38,281 nucleotides of DNA from a virus. The notes beneath the pieces are model-generated. The model was given only the letters and a program-made list of their open reading frames with translations. It made no database searches and was not told where the DNA came from. A program made the position numbers and the translations under genes. Shown piece after piece: positions 1,015 through 20,382 of this stretch. Position 1 is the stretch's first letter, and every line of letters starts with the position of its first letter. The stretch is from positions 1-38,281 of the IMG/VR virus record IMGVR_UViG_3300044712_000961. One strand, 5' to 3'.

Positions 1015-1791
1015 ATGACATTACCTAAGGTCTCAATCATCATTACGGCATTCAATAAAGACCACAAACGGTACTTAGATGCGTGTGTGGCATCGGTTAA
1101 AAATTTAAATTATCCAAAAGAGCTTTTAGATGTCTCGATTGTAAGTCATGTTGAATACAATCCAACTTATCCAGACACCAAAACCATAAATTTTCCAGAC
1201 AAAAATTATCATAATCCTGCGGCCTTAAATCGTGGGTTTAGAGAAGCCGATCCCGATTCGAAATTCTTTTTGATGCTTAACGATGACACGATTGTAACTA
1301 AAAATTCTTTAAAAAATATGATCAGTGTTGCAGTAGATGAAAATTTAATCGTTGGGCCAATCGCTCCATGCGATAACTATTGGCTCTACTATTTGCATTT
1401 CTCGTTTGCCTCAAACAATGAATTTATCGGCCTAAGTGAGCGCTTTTATAAGTATGAGCACTTAGCGCCTTACATTAACGATCTAATGAATGCTGAAAGT
1501 CATTATCCAAAAGGCCTTTTGTTTCAGCCCTTCCTTTGCCTATTCGCCCACTTAGTCCCAAGAAAAGTATGGAACGCCGTTGGTGAATTCGATGAGAATT
1601 TCAAAACTGGCCAAGACGATGTTGATTATTGTTGGCGTGCACGAAACAAAGGTTTTTTAAGTGCAGTTGCCTTAGATAGTTTCATTTTCCACTTTGGCGG
1701 TATTAGTAGTGATAAAGGAATTGACCAAGCCACACGCCAAGCGAATCAGGCTTATTTTAAAGAAAAATGGGGAGTCGCTCCGCCATGCTAG
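1015..1791 (+). CDS. GT2 family glycosyltransferase
   Basis: This 258-residue protein has the GT-A fold hallmarks of family 2. The N-terminal strand VSIIITAFN is at 6-14, NDDT at 89-92 is the metal/nucleotide-sugar DxD-like motif, GEFDENF is at 190-196, and DDVDYCWR at 201-208 is the acidic acceptor-site motif, followed by HFGG near 226. It would transfer a sugar from a nucleotide-sugar donor in the cytoplasm. The start abuts the stop of the methyltransferase-like gene (TAA-ATG), so the two are probably co-translated. Acceptor unknown: virion protein, host surface glycan or DNA base are all possible, with the operon partner favouring a glycan. Confidence 0.88.
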   Translation: MTLPKVSIIITAFNKDHKRYLDACVASVKNLNYPKELLDVSIVSHVEYNPTYPDTKTINFPDKNYHNPAALNRGFREADPDSKFFLMLNDDTIVTKNSLKNMISVAVDENLIVGPIAPCDNYWLYYLHFSFASNNEFIGLSERFYKYEHLAPYINDLMNAESHYPKGLLFQPFLCLFAHLVPRKVWNAVGEFDENFKTGQDDVDYCWRARNKGFLSAVALDSFIFHFGGISSDKGIDQATRQANQAYFKEKWGVAPPC

Positions 1792-2372
1792 TCGGTAAAC
1801 GATTTAATTATCTAACCGTAGCCGAAGAGCCGATTGGGCCAAAGATGCTTTGCGCTTGTGATTGCGGCACTAGAAAAGTCATAAACAAATACGCCGTTTT
1901 TCATGGGCATACAAAATCGTGTGGTTGTTTAGGCAGGCGAGTTACGGCTGAAAGGCAAACCGTTCACGGCATGTCCAATGATCCTGTTTACATGAGCTGG
2001 AAAAAGATGCTTAGCCGCTGCAATTCGCCTAAGGCTAAAGACTATAAATGGTACGGCGGGATCGGTATCACCGTTTCAGAATCGTGGCACAAATTCGAAA
2101 ACTTCATTAACGATATGGGAATGCGGCCAAAGGGAATGGTGCTAGACCGCATTGATCATACCAAAGGCTATTCAAAAGAAAATTGCCAATGGACTACTAA
2201 GCTAGAGCAAAACAATAGAGTTAGACGAAATCGCATTTTAACAATAAATGGTCAGCAGATCACGATGGCTAATGCGGCTAGAAAATATAAAATTCCTTAT
2301 TACACTTTACGCTCTAGAATTCACATTCTAAAATGGGATCATGAAAAAGCCGTTAACACACCGGCAAAATAA
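1785..2372 (+). CDS. HNH/AP2-like DNA-binding protein (homing-endonuclease type)
   Basis: From ATG 1785 the product is 195 residues. An N-terminal zinc-ribbon-like segment has CACDCG at 23-28 and CGC at 46-48. The middle carries the conserved phage pattern WYGG (89-92), DRIDH (121-125) and NCQWT (133-137), seen in HNH- and AP2-linked free-standing homing endonucleases. The C terminus (about 158-180) looks like a helix-turn-helix. ATG 1785 is preferred over ATG 1767 because the family typically starts with a VGKRF-like sequence and GGGGAG lies ten bases upstream. The gene overlaps the GT2 stop. It is probably a selfish DNA-binding or nicking protein; catalysis cannot be shown from sequence. 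Confidence 0.7.
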   Translation: MLVGKRFNYLTVAEEPIGPKMLCACDCGTRKVINKYAVFHGHTKSCGCLGRRVTAERQTVHGMSNDPVYMSWKKMLSRCNSPKAKDYKWYGGIGITVSESWHKFENFINDMGMRPKGMVLDRIDHTKGYSKENCQWTTKLEQNNRVRRNRILTINGQQITMANAARKYKIPYYTLRSRIHILKWDHEKAVNTPAK

Positions 2373-2375
2373 ATA

Positions 2376-2462
2376 ATGACGGAACTAGAAGAAATATTAG
2401 CCTTCATTCTTATGTGGTTAATTTTGTTCTGGATTATCTGCGTTTTTTGCCAATTCAACTAA
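2376..2462 (+). CDS. 28-aa single-span membrane peptide
   Basis: A short ORF begins four bases after the previous stop and encodes 28 residues: an acidic N terminus (ELEE at 3-6) followed by a continuous hydrophobic segment of about 18 residues rich in Ile, Leu, Trp and Phe. The composition is what a one-pass membrane peptide would have, and placement in the operon suggests reinitiation. There is no convincing Shine-Dalgarno site and no recognised family. It may not be expressed. Confidence 0.4.
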   Translation: MTELEEILAFILMWLILFWIICVFCQFN

Positions 2463-2505
2463 AGCCCAGTTGACTTGTGTCTATCAAAAGGCGTGCAATC
2501 TTTTA

Positions 2506-2991
2506 ATGACTAACAATCCAAAAGACAGAGCACGTAAAGCTTTAGAAAATTACTATACAAAACAAATAAAAAAATCTGGTCCGCCAAAGAAGAACCGTAA
2601 ACCAGAAAAAGAAGTCGCCAAATGGTGCATGGACTGGATGCGCTCTCAAGATTGGTCTGTACAGATCGTAGAATCTAAAAACACCTATAACCCACAAGCT
2701 GGTAGATGGGTTTCGTCATCGACCAAAGCCGGCACCGCAGATTGTCTTGGCACACTACCAAGTGGTACTTTCGTTGCCATTGAATTTAAATCGCCTGGGC
2801 GCTTAAGCACTTTCAATGCTGATAAAAATGTACGCCAACGCGATTACATCATTGAAAAAATCCATACATATTCTTTTGCCTGTGTAGTCGATAGCGTTGC
2901 GCGCTTAAAAGAAATCTATGATGCGTATGTGTCAGCGCTAGAAGTTTCTAAAGACAAAGCTAAAAATGTCCTCTTAAATTATCTACCTTAA
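2506..2991 (+). CDS. VRR-NUC domain nuclease
   Basis: From ATG 2506 the product is 161 residues; an upstream TTG at 2470 would add 12 more. A basic N terminus is followed by a PD-(D/E)XK-type VRR-NUC fold: a GTADCLG element, then AIEFKSPG supplying the E-x-K catalytic pair, then QRDYI and a C-terminal VDSVARL strand-helix. Stand-alone VRR-NUC proteins in phages are usually placed in replication and recombination as structure-specific nucleases, such as Holliday-junction or flap processing. The gene lies directly before the primase-helicase and ends at a hairpin, consistent with a DNA-metabolism role. The domain call is good; the exact DNA substrate is unknown. Confidence 0.8.
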   Translation: MTNNPKDRARKALENYYTKQIKKSGPPKKNRKPEKEVAKWCMDWMRSQDWSVQIVESKNTYNPQAGRWVSSSTKAGTADCLGTLPSGTFVAIEFKSPGRLSTFNADKNVRQRDYIIEKIHTYSFACVVDSVARLKEIYDAYVSALEVSKDKAKNVLLNYLP

Positions 2992-3002
2992 AGAAAAATA
3001 AA

Positions 3003-3040
3003 AAAGCCCATTTAAACCAGCAGTAATTTAAATGGGCTTT
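3003..3040. terminator. Hairpin terminator, U-tract strongest on the minus strand
   Basis: Perfect 14-bp arms (3003-3016 and 3027-3040, AAAGCCCATTTAAA and its complement) flank a 10-base loop just after the nuclease gene. On the plus strand only three T follow. On the minus strand the hairpin is followed by a long T-rich tract, complementary to the A-run at 2993-3006. It could stop rightward readthrough and would also stop leftward antisense transcripts coming from the primase region. Confidence 0.7.
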
Positions 3041-3092
3041 ACGCAAACTAAAACAACTGAGGATATACAGTGAATAATAGCAGATCAAATTT

Positions 3093-3108
3093 AAACTACC
3101 GATAGTTT
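3093..3108. promoter_or_regulatory. Small palindrome upstream of the primase-helicase gene
   Basis: AAACTA-CCGA-TAGTTT forms perfect 6-bp arms with a 4-base centre, 49 bases upstream of the primase-helicase start. The rest of the 2992-3156 spacer holds only the hairpin terminator and AT-rich DNA; I could not settle on -35/-10 boxes. An operator is possible. Confidence 0.3.
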
Positions 3109-3156
3109 CTAAGCAAACCAAAAACACTAGCACTAGGGGATATGGGGTAAAGCGTT

Positions 3157-5337
3157 ATGGGTTTTGAAGATATTCGTAATGAAATGTTAAATAAGGGTTT
3201 AAGTCCAAATGAACTTATAGCCGATGGCACAATCAAAAGATTTAAAGCAAACGCCGATGATCATGGCAAAGCCGGTTGGTACATCGGATACCAAAACAAA
3301 ACGAATTCCGGCGATGACTACTTCGTTTTTGTTTATGGCAATTTTAAAACTGGCGAACGTTACACGTCTCGGCCAAACAAAAAACTAGGCCCAGATGAAC
3401 AAGCACAAATTAAAAAGCAACTTAAAGAAATAAGCCGAAAGGCCAATGAAGAAAAAGAAAAAGGCCAAATAGAAGTTGCGAGAAAAATATCCTATGAGTG
3501 GAATGGCAAACAACTTTCGCTTCCGTCACTCTACATTCAAAACAAAAAAATCAGCGATGATGTGTTGGCCAAAAGTGATATTAGATTTGATATCATTGAC
3601 GGCGAAAACGTTTTGCTAATTCCCGTTATCGATGTCGATGGGCAGATTTGGTCAGTTCAAAAAATTTGGCCAGATGGCTCAAAGCGGTTTGAAACAGGTG
3701 GAAAAATTAAAGGATGCTTTATGAGCATCGGTTATTTGGAAGAAACCGCTCCAATTTATCTTTGCGAGGGATACGCAACCGGAAGCTCAATTTATCAAGC
3801 CACCAATGGTTTTGTGGTTTGCGCATTAAGCGCTAATAATATGGAGCCGGTTGCGCGTGACCTTTTAAAAGCGCATCCAAATCGCAAGTATATTGTTTGC
3901 GGTGATGATGACCGTTTTGGCCAATCCAATGCCGGACGCAAAGGCGCACTTGGCGCTGCTAAAATATTAAACGCTAAATGCGTTTTTCCAAAATTTGATG
4001 ATGGCATTAGTGGCACCGACTTTAATGATATGCACATAGCCTCTGGGTTAAAGGCAGTAGCCGATGTCATTTTTGATGATGTTGGCGCCGCGCAAGATGA
4101 GTACAGTCTTTACAAAGAATTTTTTGAAAAGAAATTTAAAGGAGCTAAAAAAGACATCATCTCTCGCGAATTCCTATGGCTAGATCATGGTCTTTGGCAG
4201 TCGCCACTTAATTGGCTTGATGCAATTAAGTCATATGCAATTGATGAAAACCTTAATCATTCAAAAATCCAATTCCATCTTCAAAGATACATTTCAGAAT
4301 TACCGTATGAGCCGTTAATGAATATTCCTGAATGGGATGGAGAAGATCGGATTGCCGCTTTAGAGCCCTTTATAAAACTTAAAGGCCAGCCGTGGTCCGT
4401 ATTTGAAGATGCTTTTAAAGAGTGGGGAGCCAACGTCTTTAGGCGGCTATTCGATGAAGGTGCACAAAATAGATGCATAATTTTAAAAGGCACTCAAGGG
4501 CTTGGCAAAGACCGACTGCTTAATAGCCTTTTAAGTGGCTTTAAGCCTTACTATTCAAAATTCTCCACTAACCGTGATGAAAGGGCCATTTGGGATCAGG
4601 TGACTGGCAATTTGGTCTTACATATTGAAGAGTTTGATCAAACTGGCTCTATGTCAGTGGCCTTTTTAAAGGATTTGATTACCCGCGATTACGCTACATA
4701 TAGGTCAGCATTTGAACGCAAAAACCTAACGCGTAAGTGCCATGGAAGCTTCATTTCAACTGTCAATATTGACTCAATCTTGCGTGATGAGACTGGAAAC
4801 AGGCGTTTTGCGGTATTTGAGATCGAACATATTGATTGGGACTATCCAAAGGATATTGGGCTTCAGGTTATGGCTCAATTCCATGCCCTCTATTTGCAAG
4901 GCTATAAGGCTAAACCAGAAACATGGCTAGCCGTTACTGAAGGTAATATTCAGTTTGAACAAGTCGATATCGTCCCTGAGCTATTGGAAATATGGGATGA
5001 GAGATTAAAGACCATGATGACTTTTGGGGATCGCGATTTGTCGTTCACTCTTGTTGCGCCAGTGGTGTCTGATTTATGCAAAATCAGTGGGTGGAAAACC
5101 AAAACAATTTTGTCGATTTTGAAGGTCAATAATAGATCCAAAAAAACAAAGAATGGGGCGCGTTATTGGCCCAAAAAAGAGGGTGACCGATCGACCACCG
5201 AAAACAATGTGGTGACCGGACAATTTACGGCTGCCCGTAGCGTCAAGAATTATGCGCCGCAGGGTGACCGGACACCCAATGACATCGGTCACCCGATCGG
5301 TCACCACTTAACCAGTGAAGATGACTTACCTTTTTAG
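3157..5337 (+). CDS. Toprim primase plus VapE-type superfamily 3 helicase
   Basis: This 726-residue protein joins a primase-like Toprim half to a virulence-associated-E helicase half. In the Toprim part CEG (203-205), GDDD (249-252) and DFND (288-291) are the acidic metal-binding motifs. In the helicase part EWDGEDRI (392-399) precedes Walker A GTQGLGKDR (445-453), Walker B-like HIEEFD (489-494) and the TGNRRF arginine region (546-551). It would prime and unwind phage DNA at the origin. The last ~50 residues look low-constraint and repetitive (GDR, VTG, GHP), because the DNA here carries repeated GGTGACC motifs. No DNA polymerase gene is present, so the host polymerase is probably recruited. 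The start follows a G-rich stretch rather than a classical Shine-Dalgarno site. Confidence 0.9.
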   Translation: MGFEDIRNEMLNKGLSPNELIADGTIKRFKANADDHGKAGWYIGYQNKTNSGDDYFVFVYGNFKTGERYTSRPNKKLGPDEQAQIKKQLKEISRKANEEKEKGQIEVARKISYEWNGKQLSLPSLYIQNKKISDDVLAKSDIRFDIIDGENVLLIPVIDVDGQIWSVQKIWPDGSKRFETGGKIKGCFMSIGYLEETAPIYLCEGYATGSSIYQATNGFVVCALSANNMEPVARDLLKAHPNRKYIVCGDDDRFGQSNAGRKGALGAAKILNAKCVFPKFDDGISGTDFNDMHIASGLKAVADVIFDDVGAAQDEYSLYKEFFEKKFKGAKKDIISREFLWLDHGLWQSPLNWLDAIKSYAIDENLNHSKIQFHLQRYISELPYEPLMNIPEWDGEDRIAALEPFIKLKGQPWSVFEDAFKEWGANVFRRLFDEGAQNRCIILKGTQGLGKDRLLNSLLSGFKPYYSKFSTNRDERAIWDQVTGNLVLHIEEFDQTGSMSVAFLKDLITRDYATYRSAFERKNLTRKCHGSFISTVNIDSILRDETGNRRFAVFEIEHIDWDYPKDIGLQVMAQFHALYLQGYKAKPETWLAVTEGNIQFEQVDIVPELLEIWDERLKTMMTFGDRDLSFTLVAPVVSDLCKISGWKTKTILSILKVNNRSKKTKNGARYWPKKEGDRSTTENNVVTGQFTAARSVKNYAPQGDRTPNDIGHPIGHHLTSEDDLPF

Positions 5338-5475
5338 TATAGGTGACCTGATGACCTGTATATTATATAAAGTAAACTATTTTCCTAAAAAAAGGGAATC
5401 CAATTGGAAAGGCTATTTTGGGTAGTATTTATAGGAATTAAGAAAATACCGTTTTGATCGGTCACTCCGGTCACC
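5182..5475. repeat. Iteron-like GGTGACC array, putative replication origin
   Basis: GGTGACC occurs at 5182, 5211, 5263 and 5342 on the plus strand. Its complement GGTCACC occurs at 5287, 5299 and 5469, with a one-mismatch copy at 5460. Flanks are shared (consensus near GGGTGACCGGA). The array covers the end of the primase-helicase gene and the spacer after it; an AT-rich stretch (about 5355-5458) lies between the last two clusters, as a DNA-unwinding element would. P4-like phages also have a primase-helicase that binds short iterons. The origin function is inferred. Confidence 0.6.
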
Positions 5476-5503
5476 CTTACTTTTGATGGATTTTCTTTAT
5501 AGT

Positions 5504-5525
5504 TTGGACGCTTTGTGTTAACATT
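5504..5525. promoter_or_regulatory. Repeated upstream element, copy 1
   Basis: GACGCTTTGTGTTAACATT here recurs as GACGCTTTGTGTCAAGATT at 6212-6230 (17 of 19 identical). Both copies lie just upstream of rightward small genes. Read on the minus strand, both give TTRACA followed by CAAAGCGTC, where TTRACA resembles a -35 box. Whether it is a promoter or a repressor site is open. Confidence 0.4.
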
Positions 5526-5531
5526 CTAAAA

Positions 5532-5714
5532 GTGAGCAAAGAAAAGTGGGAACAAACTTTGATAGAAGCAGACTTAAGCAAGGATCCGTTTACTGCTGAG
5601 ATGCAGCTCATTTACATGGATCAAAAACCCACCAATGAGATATTGAAAGCCATTTTCAATTTGAAGAAGTTGATTATTTTTGAGGCATTCCAAAAAACTG
5701 AAGGTAGCGACTAA
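5532..5714 (+). CDS. Hypothetical 60-aa protein
   Basis: A GTG-started ORF encodes 60 residues, acidic and then amphipathic, with a hydrophobic helix near residues 38-52 (ILKAIFNLKKLIIFEAF). I recognise no domain. Immediately upstream lies the repeated GACGCTTTGTGT element, but there is no Shine-Dalgarno site. Its 3' end overlaps the convergent lipoprotein gene by four bases. The reading frame is plausible rather than proven. Confidence 0.4.
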   Translation: MSKEKWEQTLIEADLSKDPFTAEMQLIYMDQKPTNEILKAIFNLKKLIIFEAFQKTEGSD

Positions 5715-6181
5715 AGACAAAGAATTTCTTCTAGCGGCTGATTAAACGTCACATCAGCCGTGTGCTTATAATAAAAGCAATGAAGTCCACCATATTGCTC
5801 ACCGCCATCATAGGTGGACTCTAATAGGGTCAGCCCATTATCGAATAGGTGTGAGCCGGTGGGCATATAGCTATAGACCACATAGCCATCAGGTACGCCA
5901 TTAAGGTCTAAGGCCGATTTGCCAGTGCAGCTAAATTCGCTATGGCCGTCATCAGATACGGCATAGGCGCAATCCATCTTTGGGTAAGTACCGCATTCAA
6001 ATACCTGAGCATTGAGCGTACCCCATTGCCTAAACGCGTACGAGCCCGTCTGAGGTGCGGCACATCCAGATGGAGCTGATAGGGCTGCTTCACCATTAGC
6101 GCTTGATGGTGGGGCTTTAGCGCAGTTTACAAGGCATGTGCTTAAAAATAAGACAAGGAGAGTCAAAATAAGCTGGTTCAT
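5711..6181 (-). CDS. Phage-encoded lipoprotein
   Basis: From ATG 6181 the product is 156 residues with a lipoprotein signal: a hydrophobic core at 4-18 and the lipobox Leu-Val-Asn-Cys with Cys20 as the acylated residue. The mature part contains several further cysteines (for example near FECG, MDCAY and FSCTG), suggesting disulphides in the periplasm or on the outer membrane. GAGG lies five bases before ATG 6181, preferred over GTG 6187. The gene runs against its rightward neighbours. Phage lipoproteins expressed alone often alter the cell surface (superinfection exclusion or receptor masking); that role is inference, and no family was recognised. Confidence 0.7.
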   Translation of the reverse strand: MNQLILTLLVLFLSTCLVNCAKAPPSSANGEAALSAPSGCAAPQTGSYAFRQWGTLNAQVFECGTYPKMDCAYAVSDDGHSEFSCTGKSALDLNGVPDGYVVYSYMPTGSHLFDNGLTLLESTYDGGEQYGGLHCFYYKHTADVTFNQPLEEILCL

Positions 6182-6483: not shown

Positions 6484-6806
6484 GTATTATGATTGGCCCA
6501 AAAAAGTACAGCTTCGAGATTGATATTAGCTCATGGGCCGATAGCGGCCTAATTGATGCCAAACCCTATTGGCTTGGATGGGACTGCGCTTACGCTGAAG
6601 GTAATTCGTTGGATGAGTTATTGGATAATGCTCAATTGACCACCAGTGATCAGGATGGTGGTGAAGGACCAACTTATACTAGTGGCGATTTGTCTGATGC
6701 AAAGTTTGAAAGTTTAAAGGGTTTTATTAAAGACGCTATGGATAAGCAGCATGACCGCAGACGCGGTAAGTTTAGAGTAATTTCTGGTCTCCAATCTGAA
6801 GGATAA
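6480..6806 (+). CDS. Hypothetical 108-aa protein
   Basis: A TTG start overlapping the preceding TGA (TTGA) gives 108 residues; ATG 6489 is an alternative three codons in. The protein is acidic in the middle (DELLDNAQ, DQDGGEGP) and basic at the C terminus (DRRRGK). I recognise no domain. Its last 35 bases overlap the convergent metalloprotease-like gene. It probably forms an operon with the zinc-finger gene. Confidence 0.5.
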   Translation: MSIMIGPKKYSFEIDISSWADSGLIDAKPYWLGWDCAYAEGNSLDELLDNAQLTTSDQDGGEGPTYTSGDLSDAKFESLKGFIKDAMDKQHDRRRGKFRVISGLQSEG

Positions 6807-7071
6807 ATGCCGATAACGTTTGAGCAATCATTTCATTAGCATCACGGCTCGTGAATTCGTGAACGCCACTTTCAAACATATATGCATGTACAAGCTCATG
6901 CCAAAGCGCACGTTTAAAAGCCTTTTTGTTATCTTTTAAATTCTCATCGATCAATATCAAATACATATCAGGGTAAGTCATGCCCTCAGCGTTTTCTGTT
7001 TCAATTAAGCCTTTGGCAAATTTAATTTCGTAAACTTCAGTCAAAACCTTTATCTTTTTAGGCAATTTCAT
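6772..7071 (-). CDS. HExxH metalloprotease-like protein (ImmA/SprT-like)
   Basis: The 99-residue protein contains ALWHELVHAY, where HELVH (58-62) is a zincin metal-binding motif, preceded by a small beta-rich segment and followed by an acidic helix (ANEMIAQTL). Size and layout match short ImmA/IrrE- or SprT-like peptidases common in phages and mobile elements. ImmA-type enzymes cleave phage or ICE repressors; SprT-type act on DNA-protein crosslinks. No repressor gene is visible here. Its ATG overlaps the stop of the upstream HNH gene (ATGA), so the two form a leftward pair antisense to the packaging unit. Confidence 0.72.
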   Translation of the reverse strand: MKLPKKIKVLTEVYEIKFAKGLIETENAEGMTYPDMYLILIDENLKDNKKAFKRALWHELVHAYMFESGVHEFTSRDANEMIAQTLSAFILQIGDQKLL

Positions 7072-7466
7072 TTACGCATCCTAAAGTTATAGATTTTAGT
7101 GATGGCAGTGAGGAACTCGTCCAAGGTCAGAACTGATTTTAGTTTATTGCATACACTACAGCACGGCACACAATTCTCTAAAGTATAGCCTTTAGTATTG
7201 TCTAATCGGTCGATACCGTTTCGTGGCTCTGTAACCATCTTTTCTTTAGCCCAACCTGTTTGAGTTTTTTTGCCAGCATAAACTGTCACAGAAACTATTC
7301 TTGGTTTTGGTTCTTCACCGCAAAAGAAACAGGCTTTTGAGGAAATGGTGTCAAACTCGTTAAAGGTTAATTCAAAACTGCGATTGCGACGACGGGCGCC
7401 CCGAACATAATCTTTAAAGAAACTATTTACGTACTTTCTAGTCCGTAAGTTAGTCATTAAAGACAT
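7068..7466 (-). CDS. HNH endonuclease
   Basis: This 132-residue basic protein has CFFC at 46-49, NGIDRLDN at 83-90 (the conserved Asp-Arg-Leu-Asp of the HNH core), NC at 98-99 and CCSVCN at 102-107, giving two CxxC zinc knuckles around the beta-beta-alpha metal fold. In phages this form is often a free-standing homing nuclease; HNH proteins also sit beside terminase genes and assist packaging, and the small terminase lies only about 340 bases away. No Shine-Dalgarno site is seen before ATG 7466 (or ATG 7457); the start lies directly next to the palindromes of the divergent spacer. Confidence 0.82.
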   Translation of the reverse strand: MSLMTNLRTRKYVNSFFKDYVRGARRRNRSFELTFNEFDTISSKACFFCGEEPKPRIVSVTVYAGKKTQTGWAKEKMVTEPRNGIDRLDNTKGYTLENCVPCCSVCNKLKSVLTLDEFLTAITKIYNFRMRK

Positions 7467-7517: not shown

Positions 7518-7826
7518 ATGATATTAAAACACATACTCTCTAAACATACAGACACCATGGATAACACTCCAGATGACTACATTTCGACGGTAGAAAAGCG
7601 ATTATGGTATGCTGTGTTGGCGTCTTATTTTGTGGATGCCTCAATGAAAAGATTAGATTCGAGAGACTGGCAATATTTATTGTTCCAAGCGCAATCGGAT
7701 TGGACTAAAGCAATTTGTAGTATGATTGATTTGGATCATGATTTTTTTCTTGATACGCTGATTAAGTTTAAAAATTCAGGCAAAAAATTTACGATGGGTA
7801 CGGTGTTTGAAAAAGAACAAACCTAA
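7518..7826 (+). CDS. Hypothetical protein upstream of small terminase
   Basis: The ORF gives 102 residues from ATG 7518, or 89 from the in-frame ATG 7557 (MDNTPDDY). Neither start has a Shine-Dalgarno site. The helical, tryptophan-bearing pattern (RLWYAVLASYFVDA then RDWQYLLFQAQSDW, then ICSMIDLD) resembles short proteins that precede terminase genes in many phages, whose function is not established. The 3' end overlaps the TTG start of the small terminase. Confidence 0.6.
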   Translation: MILKHILSKHTDTMDNTPDDYISTVEKRLWYAVLASYFVDASMKRLDSRDWQYLLFQAQSDWTKAICSMIDLDHDFFLDTLIKFKNSGKKFTMGTVFEKEQT

Positions 7827-8364
7827 AAACAAAGTAGGCGCTCCCACAAGTTATAAGCCCGAATACTGTCAACAAATATTGGATTACTTCGGCGTAGCTC
7901 CTTATTACATGAAGCCAGTTGAAACTTATGACAAAAAGAGCGGGCAAGTTATAAAGATTATGATGGAAGTTGCTAGCGACACTCCATCAATGGCTGGTTT
8001 TGCATGTGAGCTTGGTGTTCATCGTGGAACACTTTGGGATTGGACAGAACGCTATCCAGAGTTTGCCGACGCCGTAAAAAAAGCTAAAGATTTACAAGAA
8101 CGTTTCCTCATAATTAATGGAAATAAGGGCATAATTAACACTGCGTTTTCAATTTTTATGGCTAAAAATGTGCTTAAATGGAGCGACCAACAAGAGATAA
8201 AACAATTTACCCAATCCAATGTTGAGATTAATGCGACTCTTAAAGAAAATCTTGCGGACTTTAGGAAAATCATTGAACTATCGAAGAATGAGCAACAAGA
8301 AAACAATTCGCAATTCGACAAGCAACTACTGGATGCTGGTCAAAAAAGCGAATCTAACAAGTAA
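7807..8364 (+). CDS. terS: Terminase small subunit (P22 gp3-like)
   Basis: The 185-residue protein begins with a basic tail and then GAPTSYKPEYCQ, the usual opening of gp3-type small terminases. A helix-turn-helix-like region follows around residues 60-85 (GVHRGTLWDWTERYPEFADAV), then an oligomerising helical segment and an Asn/Gln-rich C terminus. Small terminase recognises the packaging site and brings phage DNA to the large subunit. The TTG start lies inside the end of the preceding gene. A small zinc-finger ORF separates it from the large subunit. Confidence 0.85.
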   Translation: MKKNKPKNKVGAPTSYKPEYCQQILDYFGVAPYYMKPVETYDKKSGQVIKIMMEVASDTPSMAGFACELGVHRGTLWDWTERYPEFADAVKKAKDLQERFLIINGNKGIINTAFSIFMAKNVLKWSDQQEIKQFTQSNVEINATLKENLADFRKIIELSKNEQQENNSQFDKQLLDAGQKSESNK

Positions 8365-8533
8365 AGGTCTTTTTCCTTCAAGTCAGGAATTATTTGATTT
8401 GATGCATATCACTTCATGTGAGCACGCGCATGAGCGATGGAAAAAGCACTGGTCATTTTGTCCCGTGTGTGGCGCCATGCCAGATAACGATGGATTAATT
8501 AAGCATAAAGAAAAAGCTGAGATAACCTGTTGA
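8333..8533 (+). CDS. Small CxxC protein between terminase genes
   Basis: From ATG 8333 the ORF encodes 66 residues, overlapping the small terminase end in another frame and ending inside the large terminase start (TTGA). FCPVCG gives one CxxC, and an earlier SCEHAHERW offers another Cys plus His, so a small zinc site is possible. I recognise no family. The tight overlaps on both sides support it being a real gene; no strong Shine-Dalgarno site is present. Confidence 0.55.
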   Translation: MLVKKANLTSKGLFPSSQELFDLMHITSCEHAHERWKKHWSFCPVCGAMPDNDGLIKHKEKAEITC

Positions 8534-9252
8534 TTGATCACGATAAACTCTTAAGCGCTATTGATAATGCGAGAACGGCCGAAGAGTTTCAGGCTTTGGT
8601 TGATATACAAAAAGAGTATTACAAAACTAGCCTTTTCAATTTCTGTAAGTTTGTGTTGGGATTTAGTGATGTCACAAAAGACACTCACGGCGACATTCTC
8701 AATTCTTTACAGAGGCATTCGAAGAGGAAACTCATTGTTATGCCGCGTGGCTGTCTTAAGAGCACTCTCGCTTGTGTTGGATATCCTATTTGGCTGCTTA
8801 TTAATGATCCTAATCATAGGATTCTTATTGACTCTGAGTTATACACTAACTCCACTACATTCATCCGTGAGATCAAAGCGCATCTTGAATCACCAAAGCT
8901 TACAAACTTGTTTGGGCAATTCAAAGGTCCAGTGTGGAACTCAGACGAAATAATAATTCAACAGCGAACTAGGAATTACAAAGAGGCATCGATTATTGCT
9001 GGTGGAGTGGGTACGACAAGAGTTGGTCAGCATCATAGCGTGATCATTGGCGACGATTACAATAGCCATAACAATACAAATTCGGTTGAAAATGCTGAGA
9101 AAGTGATTGACCATTATCGCAGGAACATTAGTATTTTAGAGCCTGATGGTACTTATGTTATTATCGGGACGCGCTATCATACGATGGATGTGATAGCTCA
9201 TATTTTAGATAACGAAGATCACAACTGCACATTTAACTATAAAGGACTATAG
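8530..9252 (+). CDS. terL: Terminase large subunit, N-terminal ATPase half (split gene)
   Basis: This 240-residue protein is the packaging motor ATPase alone. Walker A-like PRGCLKST is at 72-79, Walker B VIIGDD at 171-176 and the coupling motif GTRYH at 213-217. The sequence then ends at residue 240 with TAG, at the point where family members run on into the nuclease domain. That domain is encoded at 9580-10365, after an intervening 107-aa gene. The three ORFs are in the same frame, separated only by TAG and TAA. The start is TTG overlapping the previous TGA. The halves presumably associate in the motor; whether readthrough joins them is unknown. Confidence 0.9.
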   Translation: MIDHDKLLSAIDNARTAEEFQALVDIQKEYYKTSLFNFCKFVLGFSDVTKDTHGDILNSLQRHSKRKLIVMPRGCLKSTLACVGYPIWLLINDPNHRILIDSELYTNSTTFIREIKAHLESPKLTNLFGQFKGPVWNSDEIIIQQRTRNYKEASIIAGGVGTTRVGQHHSVIIGDDYNSHNNTNSVENAEKVIDHYRRNISILEPDGTYVIIGTRYHTMDVIAHILDNEDHNCTFNYKGL

Positions 9253-9255
9253 ATA

Positions 9256-9579
9256 ATGAGCTTAAAGAATGACATCACATCATTGGGCGCCACTCGTTTT
9301 GCAGTGGGCTTATCGCAAATCGTTCGCTGTGTTGCTACTGATTATGTGACAGATTGGCAATTAAGAATTCTAGTTGGCGGTGGAACTTTAGAGATTGTGC
9401 CACCAGCATTTTCTGGAACAAGCACAGTTGCCGCAACCGCTTGGGGAACTGGTTACGCAGTTGGATCAAGTGAAGTTATCTTTGGGCAAGGTCCTGCAAC
9501 AGTTTATTTAGCTGCGACTGGTGCAACGATGACTGCGCAAATGGCATTGTTTTATTCAAACGGTGTTACATTAAAGTAA
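9256..9579 (+). CDS. Structural-like 107-aa protein inserted inside the terminase gene
   Basis: The product has a short N-terminal segment and a Gly/Ala/Thr/Val-rich, apparently all-beta body (GGGTLEIVPPAF, GTGYAVGSSEV, GPATVYLAATGAT) like small phage decoration or fibre-base proteins. It has its own weak Shine-Dalgarno site (AAAGGA, nine bases upstream). It starts three bases after the ATPase stop and ends directly against ATG of the nuclease half, in the same frame as both. It lacks intein end motifs, HNH or GIY-YIG residues. It is probably a virion protein that landed in the terminase linker. Family unrecognised. Confidence 0.75.
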   Translation: MSLKNDITSLGATRFAVGLSQIVRCVATDYVTDWQLRILVGGGTLEIVPPAFSGTSTVAATAWGTGYAVGSSEVIFGQGPATVYLAATGATMTAQMALFYSNGVTLK

Positions 9580-10365
9580 ATGAAATGGGATGTAGTTTAC
9601 AAGACTGCATACAATGAGGATGGCACAGCTTTTTTTCCAGAGAAGTTGTCATTGGAACGCCTTGAGGAAATTAAACGTTCTCAAGGCATTTATATTTTTA
9701 CGAATCAATATCTTAATAAGGTTATTCCAACAGAGCTTCAGACATTCAAACGAGACTGGCTCAAGATATATACAAGAGTACCAAGACGAGTTAACACTTT
9801 CATGGCTATTGATCCGGCTTTATCTGAAGCAGATACTGCGGACAATACTGGTATTGTGGTGGTTGATGTCGATGCCCAAAACCAAAGGTATGTTAGATAC
9901 GCCAAAAGGCATAGAGTTAACCCGACTGAGCTCATCGATCTTATCTTTAGATTACACGCTCAATTCAACACGACGGCAATTGGCGTTGAGCAGATCGCAT
10001 ACCAAAAAGCGCTTTTATATTTTCTTGATCAGGAAATGCGTCGACGCAATACAATTTTGCCAGTTGAGGGCATCAAGTATCCTCCGACAAAGTCTAAGCA
10101 AACCAGGATTTTGAGTTTAGTTCCCTATTTCGAATACGGACGAATGTTATTGAACCAAGGGTTACAGGAATTAGAACAAGAGCTATTAGAATTCCCACGT
10201 GGACGGCATGATGACTTAATTGACGCACTTGCTCAGATTGATTATCTTGCCTATCCGCCTACAGATAAGGAAGAGTTTAAGAAACCACATTCTCAACATC
10301 ATGCAGATTACGAGAAGTGGTACATCCACAATTTGCAAAAAAACCAAGACGTCATGGAAGAATAA
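9580..10365 (+). CDS. terL: Terminase large subunit, C-terminal nuclease half (split gene)
   Basis: The 261-residue protein begins with the usual ATPase-nuclease junction (WDVVYKTAYNEDGTAFFPE at 3-21) and continues with the RNase H-like headful nuclease. Asp78 is in FMAIDPA, Glu137 in GVEQIA, and the Asp pair 211-212 with Asp215 in RHDDLIDA; together these are the metal-binding acids. ATG 9580 follows the TAA of the inserted gene with no Shine-Dalgarno site, so it depends on reinitiation. It would cut concatemeric DNA at the start and end of packaging, and needs the separate ATPase half to work. Confidence 0.9.
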   Translation: MKWDVVYKTAYNEDGTAFFPEKLSLERLEEIKRSQGIYIFTNQYLNKVIPTELQTFKRDWLKIYTRVPRRVNTFMAIDPALSEADTADNTGIVVVDVDAQNQRYVRYAKRHRVNPTELIDLIFRLHAQFNTTAIGVEQIAYQKALLYFLDQEMRRRNTILPVEGIKYPPTKSKQTRILSLVPYFEYGRMLLNQGLQELEQELLEFPRGRHDDLIDALAQIDYLAYPPTDKEEFKKPHSQHHADYEKWYIHNLQKNQDVMEE

Positions 10366-10368
10366 AAT

Positions 10369-11007
10369 ATGATTTGGTTTCAAACTGTAAGCACATCAAG
10401 TTCATCGGCATCAGCGGCATCAATGACAATTACAACGATGAAGGCAGCTGGGTCATCGACATACACAACGCCGTCTAACGTTTCATTCTTAAAAGTTTAT
10501 GTAGTTGGTGGCGGTGGTGGCGGTGGTGGAAACACTGGTGCAGGTGCAGCTGGTGGAACATCAGCATTTGGAACTGTGTTTGCCTTAGGCGGTGCTCTTG
10601 GTGGCAACTCCACAATTGGCGGTGCAGGTGGCGGTGCCACTACAGGTGGGTTTGCCGGCTTCGCTGTGAGTGGTGGCGGCGGCGGCGCTGGTGGGAACTT
10701 TGTGGGAAGCCAGGGTGGACATGGTGGTAACTCAATTTTTGGTGGTGGTGGACCAGGTGGACCGACTAGCGGTTCTGGTGGAGCGCCTGCAGCTAATAGT
10801 GGCGGTGGCGGTGGTGCATGTGGATCTGTTGCTGGTGGCGCTGCCAGTGGTGGTGGCGCAGGTGGAGCGGCAGTTGTTTTAATTCCTGCTCCTGGTGCCA
10901 CATATTCATTTACAGTTGGCCCTGGTGGTAACGGTGGAAGTGGTGGCGGTGGTCAGATTGGTGCCACTGGCGCAATTGGTATTGTTGTTGTGGAAGAGTG
11001 GCGATGA
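10369..11007 (+). CDS. Glycine-rich adhesin-like protein
   Basis: The 212-residue protein has a Ser/Thr N terminus, then a FLKVYVVGGGGGGGG entry strand and about 140 residues of glycine runs, ending in a FTVGPGG...GIVVVEEW closing strand. This frame is typical of glycine-rich domains in tail-fibre tips (polyglycine II sandwich in T-even gp38-type adhesins). Such tips bind host receptors. Its place between the terminase nuclease and portal genes is unusual for an adhesin. The repetitive GGTGG codons favour recombination and length change. Adhesin function is inferred from composition. Confidence 0.65.
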   Translation: MIWFQTVSTSSSSASAASMTITTMKAAGSSTYTTPSNVSFLKVYVVGGGGGGGGNTGAGAAGGTSAFGTVFALGGALGGNSTIGGAGGGATTGGFAGFAVSGGGGGAGGNFVGSQGGHGGNSIFGGGGPGGPTSGSGGAPAANSGGGGGACGSVAGGAASGGGAGGAAVVLIPAPGATYSFTVGPGGNGGSGGGGQIGATGAIGIVVVEEWR

Positions 11008-11551: not shown

Positions 11552-11787
11552 TGGAAATAGCTGTCTACTTAACGATAGTTGTTTTGGCTGGACTAAATAT
11601 TTGTCAATACCTTTTTTGGTCTAGGCAAGTAAATCAGCTATTGAACAAGCTGATGAGTAGAAACTATGCTGAGTATGTTTCAATAGAAAAAGAAATTGCG
11701 TCGCCTCCCCAAGTCAAGATGGATCTTGATCCGGCAATTGATGAAGAAAAAGAAATATTGTCAGAACTTAACGGGATGTTAGCTTGA
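11551..11787 (+). CDS. Small membrane protein upstream of portal
   Basis: The 78-residue protein has an N-terminal transmembrane helix (about 4-23, IAVYLTIVVLAGLNICQYLF) followed by a charged, mostly acidic tail. ATG overlaps the previous stop by one base. Function unknown; an inner-membrane anchor for assembly or a lysis accessory are possible. The portal TTG start overlaps its TGA. Confidence 0.6.
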   Translation: MEIAVYLTIVVLAGLNICQYLFWSRQVNQLLNKLMSRNYAEYVSIEKEIASPPQVKMDLDPAIDEEKEILSELNGMLA

Positions 11788-13871
11788 GTATATTCGACAA
11801 AGTTTTAGGCAAGTTGGGTTCACCCACCAAGGATGGCGCTCAGTTAGCAGAGATTCAATCTGCTAACGAGCAGCCCATGGATGAGCAAAAGATTGTTTCT
11901 TACGTCAAACAAAAGATTGATGAAAGTCGCCAGTCTAATTCACGCATTATCATTGAAGGCATTTACTTAACAAACACTGCATATTTAGTTGGTTACAACC
12001 AAGTTGTGTTTGATCCTAATATTAGACAATTTAAAAATGCTGATAATCGCCGTCGAATTAATAGAGCCGCATTTAAGATCAATAAGATATTGCCAACATG
12101 TCAGAACAGATTAGCTAGACTTTGCAAGAGTCCACCAAAGTATGAAGTAAGACCGAATTCGAATGATGTTGATGACAAAGACGCTGCAGTATTGGGCGTT
12201 GAGATCATTAACGATACGATGGATAAGAACGAATTTCAGTCTAAACAACAAGAGCTATTGATGTCGACCATGCAAGGTGGACACGCTTATGTGCAGACGT
12301 CTTGGGATCCCAATGCTGGTAATCCCATGTATGATCCTGACACTGGTGAGCTTGTTGGTTATGAAGGCGACATTAAATTAGAGATTTTGAATTGCTTGCA
12401 GGTGTTTCCCGATCCTTTGGCTAAGACGGTTGAGGAATGTAACTATCTGATTAAAGCTAAGGTAAGGAAATTAGATTATTTCAAAGAGCGATTTCCAGAG
12501 CGTGGACATTTAGTAAAAGAGGAAGCCACTTGGCTTATTTCGTCCACATATGACATGCGTACAAATGCAATGTCGCCCGCTGGAATTGCTGGTGCTCAAA
12601 TCAATGAGCAGCAAAAGAACTCCGCAATAGAATTGGTTTATTATGAAAAGCGCAGCAAGGATCATCCGAATGGCCGAATGATCATTTGCGCAAGCGGGGT
12701 ATTGCTTGAGGATAAAGAGCTACCTATTGGTGAATACGATATTGTTAAGTTTGATGATATCTTGGTTAGTGGACGGTACAATTCTGAAGCAGTTATTACT
12801 CATTTACGTCCTATACAAGACCAATATGTAATCTTGCGTACAAAAATGGCCGATTGGATTAAGCGCACTTTAGGTGGCAAATATCTAGCGGCAAAGGGCG
12901 CTAACCTTTCACAAGAAGCTCTTAACTCTGAGAGTGGTGAAGTGGTTGAGTATAATCCAGTGCCGAATGCAGCTCCGCCAATGGCGATGCAGATTCCGCA
13001 ATTGCCAGCGTACACTTATCAAGACTTAGAGGTTTTAGATAAGGAGTTTGATTTTGTTTCTGGCATTAACGAAATATCCCGTGGTGTTTTGCCATCGGCT
13101 TCAATTCCAGCTGCGGGAATGGCCTTTTTGCAAGAGCAAGATCAAACGAGAATTGGTGTTTCTACTAATCGAAATGAGATTGGTTACTCAAAAGTTGGCC
13201 GACATATTTTAAAATATGCGCATAAAATGATGCAGACTCCACGGCTTATGAAATTGGCCGGTGATGGATTGCAATACACAGTTAAAGAGTTTGTCGGTGA
13301 GGATATCAATGGAAACTATGACTGTAGAGTTGTGCCTGGTAGTACTCTTCCTGACAGTCTTGTACTTAAACGCCAAGACTTAATGACGGCATTCAATGCT
13401 GGCCTATTAGGAAATCCTCAAGATCCAAAGGTGCAAGCTCGTGTTCTTAAGGACATGCAGTTTGGTGATATCCAAGACATTTGGAAAACAAGAAACTTGG
13501 ATGATGCTCAGATCAAAAAAGCTATTGATATGATTGAGCACAGTCAGATGCCTGTTGCTCATGAATGGGACAATCACGAATTGTTCATTCAAGAGCTCAA
13601 TGACTTTAGAAAAACAGATAAATTTGATCAGATGTCAGATGAGCAAAAGGGAATGCTCAATATGTGCGTTGAGCAGCACATTAATTTCTTGGTTAATCTG
13701 ACCAATCCAGAAGTTGGCCAAGCACAAAACATGGCTGAGCACGTTGTAAATACAATGCATGAACAAGATCAAGGAGCTAGTGGACAAATGGGCGTTGAGC
13801 CGCCACCACAGCCGGCAGGGCCTGGAATTCCAACAATACAGGGCCAAGGCCCTCAAGCGATGGGAGCTTAA
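11784..13871 (+). CDS. Portal protein (P22 gp1-like)
   Basis: The 695-residue protein is close to the P22 portal in length (725) and lies where the portal is expected. Recognisable pieces include RINRAAFKINKILPTCQNRL near residues 90-110, the QVFPDPLAKTVEEC wing region near 205-218, the ILRTKMADWIKRT stem-like helices near 350-362, FVSGINEISRGVLPSAS, and a Pro/Gly-rich C-terminal tail. Twelve copies would form the ring through which the motor pumps DNA. The start is TTG in a TTGA overlap with the membrane-protein gene; there is no ATG nearby. Confidence 0.92.
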   Translation: MSIFDKVLGKLGSPTKDGAQLAEIQSANEQPMDEQKIVSYVKQKIDESRQSNSRIIIEGIYLTNTAYLVGYNQVVFDPNIRQFKNADNRRRINRAAFKINKILPTCQNRLARLCKSPPKYEVRPNSNDVDDKDAAVLGVEIINDTMDKNEFQSKQQELLMSTMQGGHAYVQTSWDPNAGNPMYDPDTGELVGYEGDIKLEILNCLQVFPDPLAKTVEECNYLIKAKVRKLDYFKERFPERGHLVKEEATWLISSTYDMRTNAMSPAGIAGAQINEQQKNSAIELVYYEKRSKDHPNGRMIICASGVLLEDKELPIGEYDIVKFDDILVSGRYNSEAVITHLRPIQDQYVILRTKMADWIKRTLGGKYLAAKGANLSQEALNSESGEVVEYNPVPNAAPPMAMQIPQLPAYTYQDLEVLDKEFDFVSGINEISRGVLPSASIPAAGMAFLQEQDQTRIGVSTNRNEIGYSKVGRHILKYAHKMMQTPRLMKLAGDGLQYTVKEFVGEDINGNYDCRVVPGSTLPDSLVLKRQDLMTAFNAGLLGNPQDPKVQARVLKDMQFGDIQDIWKTRNLDDAQIKKAIDMIEHSQMPVAHEWDNHELFIQELNDFRKTDKFDQMSDEQKGMLNMCVEQHINFLVNLTNPEVGQAQNMAEHVVNTMHEQDQGASGQMGVEPPPQPAGPGIPTIQGQGPQAMGA

Positions 13872-18135: not shown

Positions 18136-20382
18136 GTGCATTCACTTCCCAATGCGCAAGTAATGACTAAAAGGCCAACGATTTCACTATGTGTAATTGC
18201 CAAAAATGAAGAGAAAAACGTTAGACGTTTTTTAGATTCATGGATTGGCGCCGTTGATGAGATCATTTTTGTGGATACTGGATCAACTGATAAGACAGTT
18301 GAGATCGCCACAGAGTATGGCTGTAGCGTTCATCATTTTGAATGGGTGAATTCCTTTTGCAAAGCACGTAATTTCTCATTTTCTAAAGCCACTAAAGATT
18401 ACATGATTTGGTCAGACTTGGATGATTGTCTTTTCAACAAAGAAAACTTCATCAATTGGCGAAATACGGCTATGCAGTTTGCCGATTGTTGGCTTGCCGC
18501 TTATCACTATGCTTTGGATGAAGCTGGAAAACCGATTATTTCATTTGCCAGAGAGAGAGTTTTCAAAAGAGACATAAATCCAGTGTGGAATTATGATTTG
18601 CATGAAGGCGTAATGGTAAGGCCAGAGTGGAAAAGGAATTATGCTACCACTTGGGCGATTAATCATCACCGTGACGCCGAAGATGTGGCGGCAGATAAGT
18701 CTAGAAACATAAAAATACTAGAAACTCTTAAAGATGAGGGAAAATTAGACACTCGTTTAGAGTTTTATTATGGAAAAGAACTTTATGAAGCGCAAAGAGC
18801 CGAAGAGGCCGTCACACAATTTGAAAAGGTGATCAAATTACCAAATTTAGAAGCGCATGACAGGCTTTTGGCTTATCAATATGGCGCTTATGCATCGATG
18901 ACTACATATTTGCAGACAAAAGATGAGTTTCAAGAAAAGAAGATGAAATATTTTGAAAAAATCATCGACTTTTGTTTGCAAGGGTTAAAACAAGATCCAA
19001 ATCGCGCAGAATTACATGTTGCTCTTGGTGATGCTTACTTAACTCGTAATGAGTTGATTAAAGCGTTGCCATGTTTTAGTGCGGCTAAGAATTGTTTGAA
19101 CTCTAAAGATATGGGAATGCCTTATGAAGGAGCAACGTACAGCTTTTTGCACTGTTATGGAGAAAATCCAGCAATCCAGCTTGCAAGGATCTATTTCAGT
19201 CTTGGAAAACTTGATGAAGCAAGAGCTGAAGCCGAGATGTGCATTAAGCGTTACAATAGCCAACAAGCGAAGGATATGCTTGTTGAATTGGATCGCTTAT
19301 CAAGCCTTATCAAACTTGATAACAATCAAAAAGACACTTCCGACATCGTAATCACAACACCACCGCAAGTGGCTTATGATTTTGACGAAGAGCTTTACAA
19401 GACTAAAGGCATGGGTGGATCTGAAACAGCTTTAATTGAGATTGCGGCATGGTTAAAGAAATTAACCAATCGTTCGGTTAAGGTGTTTTTGCCAAAGGCT
19501 GAAGATAAGATTTGTGAAAGTGGCGTTGAATATTTATCCAATAGAAATTTGAACGCTTACTTTAGCCAGAACCGTCCACATGTGCATATAGCATGGCGAC
19601 ATAACATTAAGGTTACGCAAGCTAGGACTTATCTATGGTGCCACGATCTATTTACGCCTGGTGTAGAGACGGTACATAATTTTGATAAGTTTTTAGCTTT
19701 AAGTAATTTCCATAAGAATTACACGATTGGGCTTCAGGGAGTACCGGAAGAAAAGATCATAGTTACTCGTAATGGGCTAACTCCATCTAAGTTTAAGTTT
19801 GAGCGTAAACCAAAGAATCCAAATAAGTTTGTATGGATGTCTAGCCCAGATCGAGGGTTAGAGCGTTGCATTTATATAGTAGAGAGAGTGCGCCAAGAGT
19901 TTCCGGATGTGGAGCTTCATGTTTATTACGGTATTGAGGGTCTTTACAAATATGGACCTGTCATGTCGGCATTAGCTGATAAGCTAAAGGCAATGATGAG
20001 CGAAAGGCCATGGATAAAGTATCATGGTTTCACTGAGCAATCTAAAATGTATCAGGAAGTTTCGGATGCAGTGGTTTGGTGCCATCCAAATGACTTTATT
20101 GAAACATATTGTATTACTGCTATTGAGTGCTTGGCTAATGGCATATTTCCTGTGGTTCGTCGTCTCGGAGCACTTCAGGATACTCTCAAAGAAGCTGAAG
20201 AAAAGCGGCAAGCAATTTTACTAGATTACGATTGGAATGACGTTGAGTATTCGATTAAGCAGCATGCAGATGCATGTTGCCGAGTGCTCTTGAATAAGCA
20301 GTGGGAAAATATTGATTTTGATATTGAAAAACACTCTTGGGAGTCAGTTGCCAAAGAGTGGAAACAGTTTATGGAGTTGTAA
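18136..20382 (+). CDS. Two-catalytic-domain glycosyltransferase: GT2 - TPR - GT-B
   Basis: This 748-residue protein starts at GTG 18136 with AGGAG seven bases upstream. Residues 14-230 form a GT2 domain: ISLCVIAKNEEKNVRRF, DTGSTD (47-52), DLDD (94-97). Residues about 190-390 look like TPR helices (repeated alanine/leucine helices, LHVALGDAYLTRNELIKALP). The C-terminal half is GT-B-like: MGGSETA at 426-432, NGLTP near 547, and an E-x7-E type segment (ETYCITAIE) near 655-664. It could build a short glycan on its own. It sits inside the virion gene block between a fibre-like protein and the neck genes, so virion protein glycosylation is the leading hypothesis. Confidence 0.88.
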   Translation: MHSLPNAQVMTKRPTISLCVIAKNEEKNVRRFLDSWIGAVDEIIFVDTGSTDKTVEIATEYGCSVHHFEWVNSFCKARNFSFSKATKDYMIWSDLDDCLFNKENFINWRNTAMQFADCWLAAYHYALDEAGKPIISFARERVFKRDINPVWNYDLHEGVMVRPEWKRNYATTWAINHHRDAEDVAADKSRNIKILETLKDEGKLDTRLEFYYGKELYEAQRAEEAVTQFEKVIKLPNLEAHDRLLAYQYGAYASMTTYLQTKDEFQEKKMKYFEKIIDFCLQGLKQDPNRAELHVALGDAYLTRNELIKALPCFSAAKNCLNSKDMGMPYEGATYSFLHCYGENPAIQLARIYFSLGKLDEARAEAEMCIKRYNSQQAKDMLVELDRLSSLIKLDNNQKDTSDIVITTPPQVAYDFDEELYKTKGMGGSETALIEIAAWLKKLTNRSVKVFLPKAEDKICESGVEYLSNRNLNAYFSQNRPHVHIAWRHNIKVTQARTYLWCHDLFTPGVETVHNFDKFLALSNFHKNYTIGLQGVPEEKIIVTRNGLTPSKFKFERKPKNPNKFVWMSSPDRGLERCIYIVERVRQEFPDVELHVYYGIEGLYKYGPVMSALADKLKAMMSERPWIKYHGFTEQSKMYQEVSDAVVWCHPNDFIETYCITAIECLANGIFPVVRRLGALQDTLKEAEEKRQAILLDYDWNDVEYSIKQHADACCRVLLNKQWENIDFDIEKHSWESVAKEWKQFMEL

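Follow-up and report, generated by a model that had tools for sequence, protein, structure and literature searches.

In well-studied phages the large terminase subunit (TerL) of the DNA-packaging motor is a single protein, and in packaging models the lid/hinge of this one chain links ATP hydrolysis in the N-terminal domain to the movement of DNA. How is DNA packaged, then, by a virus in which the chain is interrupted by other coding sequence? The question is raised by IMG/VR virus record IMGVR_UViG_3300044712_000961, analysed here over positions 1 to 38,281 (this whole stretch of 38,281 nucleotides is referred to as the window), where the ATPase and nuclease parts of TerL are encoded by two genes with a 107-aa open reading frame (ORF), the insert, between them. 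An initial annotation, made from the sequence and its ORFs without database searches, had read this as a motor assembled from two chains, perhaps with a virion protein expressed from the hinge, and had left room for low-level readthrough into a 611-aa fusion. The reading that we find very probable is a large terminase made as two chains that come together in trans, their genes flanking a virion/host-interaction cassette.

Re-reading of the sequence bore out the three ORFs, their coordinates, their common frame and the stops between them, a TAG at 9250 and a TAA at 9577 (Table 1). The flanking ORFs match consecutive stretches of a single TerL profile, PHROG 38, so that the two halves are collinear and no piece of TerL is missing. 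The assignment of the ATPase motifs to the first ORF and of the nuclease acids to the third is upheld both by these matches and by the residues invariant in an alignment of the clade described below, namely P72, R73, G74, K77 and S78 (Walker A), D175 and D176 (Walker B) and G213, T214 and R215 in the ATPase, and D78, E137, D212 and D215 (the D/E/D catalytic acids) in the nuclease. The genomic setting is that of a TerL, with a small-terminase-like gene upstream and a portal gene downstream. As read from the sequence, an AAAGGA about 11 nt 5' of the insert ATG resembles a ribosome-binding site, and the ATG of the nuclease gene directly abuts the stop of the insert (TAA-ATG).

The arrangement recurs well beyond the window. 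Relatives were found in IMG/VR via alignments that included distant TerLs; direct sequence searches with the insert alone or the nuclease alone recovered no relatives in viral_contigs, and no relative was found in GTDB genomes, so that no host can be assigned. In all, 59 loci (L168-L226) have a nuclease gene that shares 40-59% identity with that of the window. Unlike in the usual TerL, with both domains on one polypeptide, the halves in this clade are separate genes in each of the 37 complete loci, i.e. those with both (the window and IMG/VR contigs), and fused in none. The distance between them in these loci is 228-6350 bp and their frames usually differ, which makes the common frame in the window incidental. 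The 35 non-redundant split rows form one clade among fused TerLs, with a support of 100 in both a FastTree (150 rows) and an IQ-TREE (74 rows) phylogeny. Thus, the search for the same arrangement in other phages, which had been proposed at the outset, led to a whole clade of contigs. Records searched whole (contigs up to 40.8 kb) encode a single ATPase and a single nuclease gene and no other TerL, with some of the short records lacking the ATPase end. In both halves, differences are about 1.6-7 times as frequent at third codon positions as at first or second ones (e.g. 0.18, 0.07 and 0.52 at codon positions 1, 2 and 3 between the nucleases of L199 and L226), a measure used instead of dN/dS because synonymous sites are saturated; this pattern shows, at the level of codons, that both halves are under purifying constraint. 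The nuclease-to-portal distance is 417-1422 bp across the clade (coefficient of variation, CV, 0.32), and the nuclease start commonly abuts or overlaps the stop before it, which fits translational coupling.

Individual clade members show further irregularities in the same genes. The ATPase of L206:5836-7641 (G020) was found as two pieces within one 602-aa open frame, with a large insertion that is probably an intein; L213:1655-3397 carries about 310 extra residues right before the last nuclease motif, possibly also an intein; and the nuclease of L225 is likewise found in two overlapping frames.

Alignment of both halves to intact TerLs allowed the joint to be placed. All ATPase genes in the clade terminate 17-41 residues past GTRY, and nearly all nuclease genes start no more than about 15 residues before a W.V.Y motif (mostly with leaders of 1-15 residues); the nearest fused relative, L090, is continuous across the break point (NEH-SKFFDILVRRAIKADGSLLYPERL). 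For fold comparison only, the read-through frame of the window was modelled with AF2; in its numbering the break comprises residues 241-350, and residue 351 is residue 1 of the nuclease. Both halves were modelled with high confidence and the insert with low confidence, the AF2 pLDDT being mostly above 88 at ATPase residues 11-230 and the nuclease being of high confidence to about its residue 225. The model matches whole TerLs (8dgc_E, Z 24.9; HK97 6z6d, Z 19.5, rmsd 7.6 over 398 residues), and a sequence search of the PDB with the nuclease profile gave no match. Solved ATPase-domain constructs align across the break, with that of T4 gp17 (2o0h) covering read-through residues 9-399 and that of P74-26 (4znk) residues 33-405, and nuclease-domain constructs begin at residue 400 (G20c nuclease 5m1k against 400-575: Z 16.0, rmsd 2.8 over 162 residues). 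Therefore, a beta-rich 107-aa ORF does split TerL, as first described, but it does so at the boundary between ATPase core and lid and not exactly at the domain linker: by the structure alignments the break is about 50 residues before the ATPase/nuclease hinge, and the "nuclease" chain consists of about 50 residues of lid plus the nuclease. Several RecA-like (DEAD-box) structures align as far as read-through residues 357-359, and these alignment ends suggest that the ATPase core sheet includes a strand encoded in the nuclease gene, 354-357 (in WDVVY).

The insert itself has no match in PHROGs or Pfam, nor in 50,697 phage records even at an E-value of 10. Its AF2 model is a small all-beta fold (pLDDT 84.2); Foldseek and VIA-align searches returned common beta folds only, with many cupin/jelly-roll rows near Z 7-8, and the best matches in a viral library were uncharacterised phage proteins (E 2.5e-4). 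It is no one-off in the window: it belongs to a family, often present in two copies per interval, whose alignment is too variable to serve as a scan query. The interval between the halves is the variable part of the region, holding 1-11 genes with a CV in length of 0.67, against 0.32 for the nuclease-to-portal distance. In L207, L215 and L218, whose TerLs are 65-75% identical, the insert family is common to all and the content that follows is different: a 267-aa protein in L207, a 263-aa protein distinct from it in L215, and a 643-aa protein with an HNH endonuclease in L218. The recognised contents of the intervals are LamG, lectin and glycine-rich domains, a K1-lyase C-terminus and the podophage fibre gp80, as well as CHAP, epimerase, glycosyltransferase, DNA methylase and HNH proteins. 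Thus, what was first noticed as a structural-type gene between two terminase chains is conserved across the clade as the constant gene of an exchangeable virion/host-interaction cassette.

What the insert does is less direct. Its rapid evolution, the company it keeps in the cassette and a weak best fold match to the PM2 spike protein (Z 8.8) favour a role at the virion surface or in host contact. Were the insert instead a functional component of the packaging motor, such as a clamp or an adaptor linking the chains, this would account for its presence in 34 of the 37 complete intervals, for its location in the interval in nearly all records that were searched in full (the one exception, in G023, being weak at E 0.005) and for its being the sole interval gene in the window. 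We regard this as unlikely, given that the family evolves far more rapidly than the terminase halves (mean pairwise identity of 0.33, versus 0.51 and 0.50), is missing from the intervals of L169/L170 and L198, is duplicated in many others, and travels with fibre, lectin and glycan genes in addition to its resemblance to a spike.

The other alternatives would dispose of the two chains altogether. Rejoining of the halves into a single-chain TerL by a self-splicing intron, trans-splicing or a split intein has clear precedents, since the terL genes of ICP1 (PMC10448857) and of the Jug phages (PMC12363816) are interrupted by spliced group I introns and that of Mic1 by inteins (PMC7156551), and an HNH endonuclease directly precedes the nuclease gene in L218 and L194. 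Nevertheless, Rfam searches of the window and of 15 split loci gave no family above threshold, group I and II introns included, and a relaxed-threshold Rfam search near the insert gave nothing credible; the ATPase tails and nuclease leaders noted above are too short for split-intein halves; the interval may hold as many as 11 genes; and L102, which belongs to another split clade, has its halves on opposite strands. Nor did the junctions show tandem or inverted repeats of the kind that would mark an insertion. Rejoining is thus distinctly improbable, and the initial statement that intron and intein signs are lacking holds. Stop-codon readthrough into a functional ATPase-insert-nuclease fusion was an understandable suggestion where three ORFs share a frame with single stops between them, as in the window. 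Most relatives are out of frame, however, including the nearest ones (L168-L172), and those in frame have up to 178 stops, with as much as 6.4 kb between the halves; the many-gene intervals and differing frames exclude readthrough as a general mechanism, and its probability is practically negligible. That the locus is a decaying terminase, an assembly chimera or a bystander to a second intact TerL elsewhere gains some appeal from the low prior of a severed motor. Yet the arrangement recurs in 37 loci from many metagenomes with one copy of each half per record, and the catalytic residues and third-position bias are kept. Dozens of independent contigs sharing the split exclude a chimera, as well as an insert confined to this one assembly, and make decay very unlikely, so that these explanations together are very improbable.

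We therefore return to the two-chain terminase. In the proposed mechanism the first gene would yield the ATPase core and the second, translated separately, the lid and RNase H-type nuclease. Meeting in trans at the portal, both chains would most likely form the same motor as other tailed phages build from one chain, with the lid chain probably supplying the last strand (WDVVY) of the ATPase sheet, and with an exchangeable virion/host-interaction cassette, in which the insert family is the constant element, placed between the two genes. Several points weigh against this proposal. In T4, removal of the hinge leaves both domains active and abolishes DNA translocation (PMC9958956), so that a severed motor is not expected to function without compensation. 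The docking of the halves in the model is partly borrowed from the fused homologues in its alignment. A Shine-Dalgarno-like sequence is recognisable at only 15 of the 59 nuclease starts, and at L168:2345-2400 the nuclease frame has no ATG, GTG or TTG before the conserved tryptophan, possibly reflecting an unusual start or a frameshift from the preceding gene. A more elaborate version, a stable two-component motor in which donation of the last beta-strand by the lid/nuclease chain makes covalent linkage of the domains dispensable for translocation and the insert is a third, lineage-specific component of the motor or portal vertex, appears doubtful. As to how the two-chain terminase arose, HNH genes are found next to the nuclease in L218 and L194 and point tentatively to a homing element; a nucleotide reductase gene has been reported to be split in this way (PMC10448857).

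Comparison with known terminases sets the clade apart. Single-chain TerLs (T4 gp17, P74-26, HK97, Sf6, T7 gp19/phiV-1) have the same order of core, lid and RNase H nuclease, and the TerL of the window is like them in its membership of PHROG 38 and its whole-length fold match; the clade differs in having two genes, cut between core and lid. Two further families annotated "terminase large subunit", PHROG 4758 (243 positions) and PHROG 5573 (250 positions), have lengths fitting ATPase-only and nuclease-only proteins and match the window halves, and the SEA-PHAGES function lists name ATPase-domain and nuclease-domain terminase genes separately. Among cultured phages the nearest relatives by portal, Arthrobacter phage Jasmine and Microbacterium phage Shocker (about 22% identity), share the gene order terminase-small genes-portal-head protein, whereas their TerL is annotated as a single gene of about 527 aa. 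In ICP1, the Jug phages and Mic1 the coding sequence of TerL is also broken up by intervening sequence; their pieces are respliced, unlike those of the clade, where the spacer consists of ordinary genes with no intron or intein detected. Among the papers searched we found no characterised two-chain phage TerL, the published split terL cases being respliced or following homing-gene insertion.

Two other splits were encountered, each in a separate clade with its own origin, and three fused/split changes are required on the 74-row IQ-TREE set; L035 may be a fourth case. One comprises ctLwi270 (MW202554.1, a public genome) and twelve IMG/VR loci: here too TerL is annotated as two genes, with a 62-aa ORF between them in ctLwi270, and the cut falls about 70 residues later, after the lid. 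The ATPase half of ctLwi270 (L006:3920-5575) additionally carries a 235-aa intein-like insert, a single gene thus combining the two kinds of interruption. The other (L099, L110 and L102) is cut at about the same core/lid point, with four small genes between the halves in L110; it differs in that the halves are adjacent in L099 and on opposite strands in L102. As assembled, the L102 contig has the nuclease at 3112-3906 (-), the portal at 1262-3112 (-) and the ATPase at 4974-5717 (+).

Table 1. Features of the split terminase region in the window
Feature	Coordinates	Strand	Description or basis
Terminase small-subunit-like gene	7807-8364	+	PHROG 3064 "terminase", E 5.8e-26; Pfam GP3_package, E 6.2e-11
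TerL ATPase core gene	8530-9252	+	240 aa, TTG start; PHROG 38 positions 266-466, E 2.4e-34
Junction after ATPase stop TAG (9250-9252)	9253-9255	+	Sequence itself
107-aa insert gene	9256-9579	+	Member of a family of about 105 aa between both terminase genes
TerL lid + nuclease gene	9580-10365	+	261 aa; PHROG 38 positions 468-719, E 3.1e-49; Pfam Terminase_6C, E 1.7e-10
Lid (ATPase subdomain II) portion of nuclease gene	9580-9729	+	Structure alignment; contains WDVVY strand 9586-9600
RNase H-type nuclease domain	9727-10254	+	Alignment with G20c nuclease 5m1k
Portal gene	11784-13871	+	PHROG 156, E 2.8e-38; conserved neighbour of nuclease gene across clade

Several other genes of the window deserve mention. 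A glycine-rich tail-fibre-like gene (10369-11007, +; PHROG 863, E 2.5e-6) lies between the nuclease and portal genes and looks like another site for cargo. Upstream of the terminase genes, on the opposite strand, are an Endonuclease VII/HNH-like gene (7068-7466, -; PHROG 1035, E 1.1e-16) and a gene with a weak IrrE-like peptidase match slightly under the cut-off (6772-7071, -; E 6.9e-4). Two glycosyltransferase genes are found at 1015-1791 and 18136-20382, the latter with TPR repeats flanked by two glycosyltransferase regions, and a 926-aa protein (26424-29204) has a weak match to an ADP-ribosyltransferase "polyvalent protein" (E 1.1e-4, under Pfam's cut-off).

What is new relative to the known split or interrupted terL genes is a lineage of uncultured bacterial viruses that has long kept core and lid-nuclease as separate genes, which suggests that the halves of the motor can work without being physically joined. 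The cut has persisted in this lineage while its members diverged to about 50% identity and, together with two independent cuts elsewhere, one of them beyond the lid, amounts to a natural experiment on the connections that the motor needs, and raises the testable question of which of its parts must be linked. For annotators it is a warning that such halves are real genes and not frameshifts. For the viruses themselves, it means that a packaging gene pair hosts a swap site for host-interaction genes.
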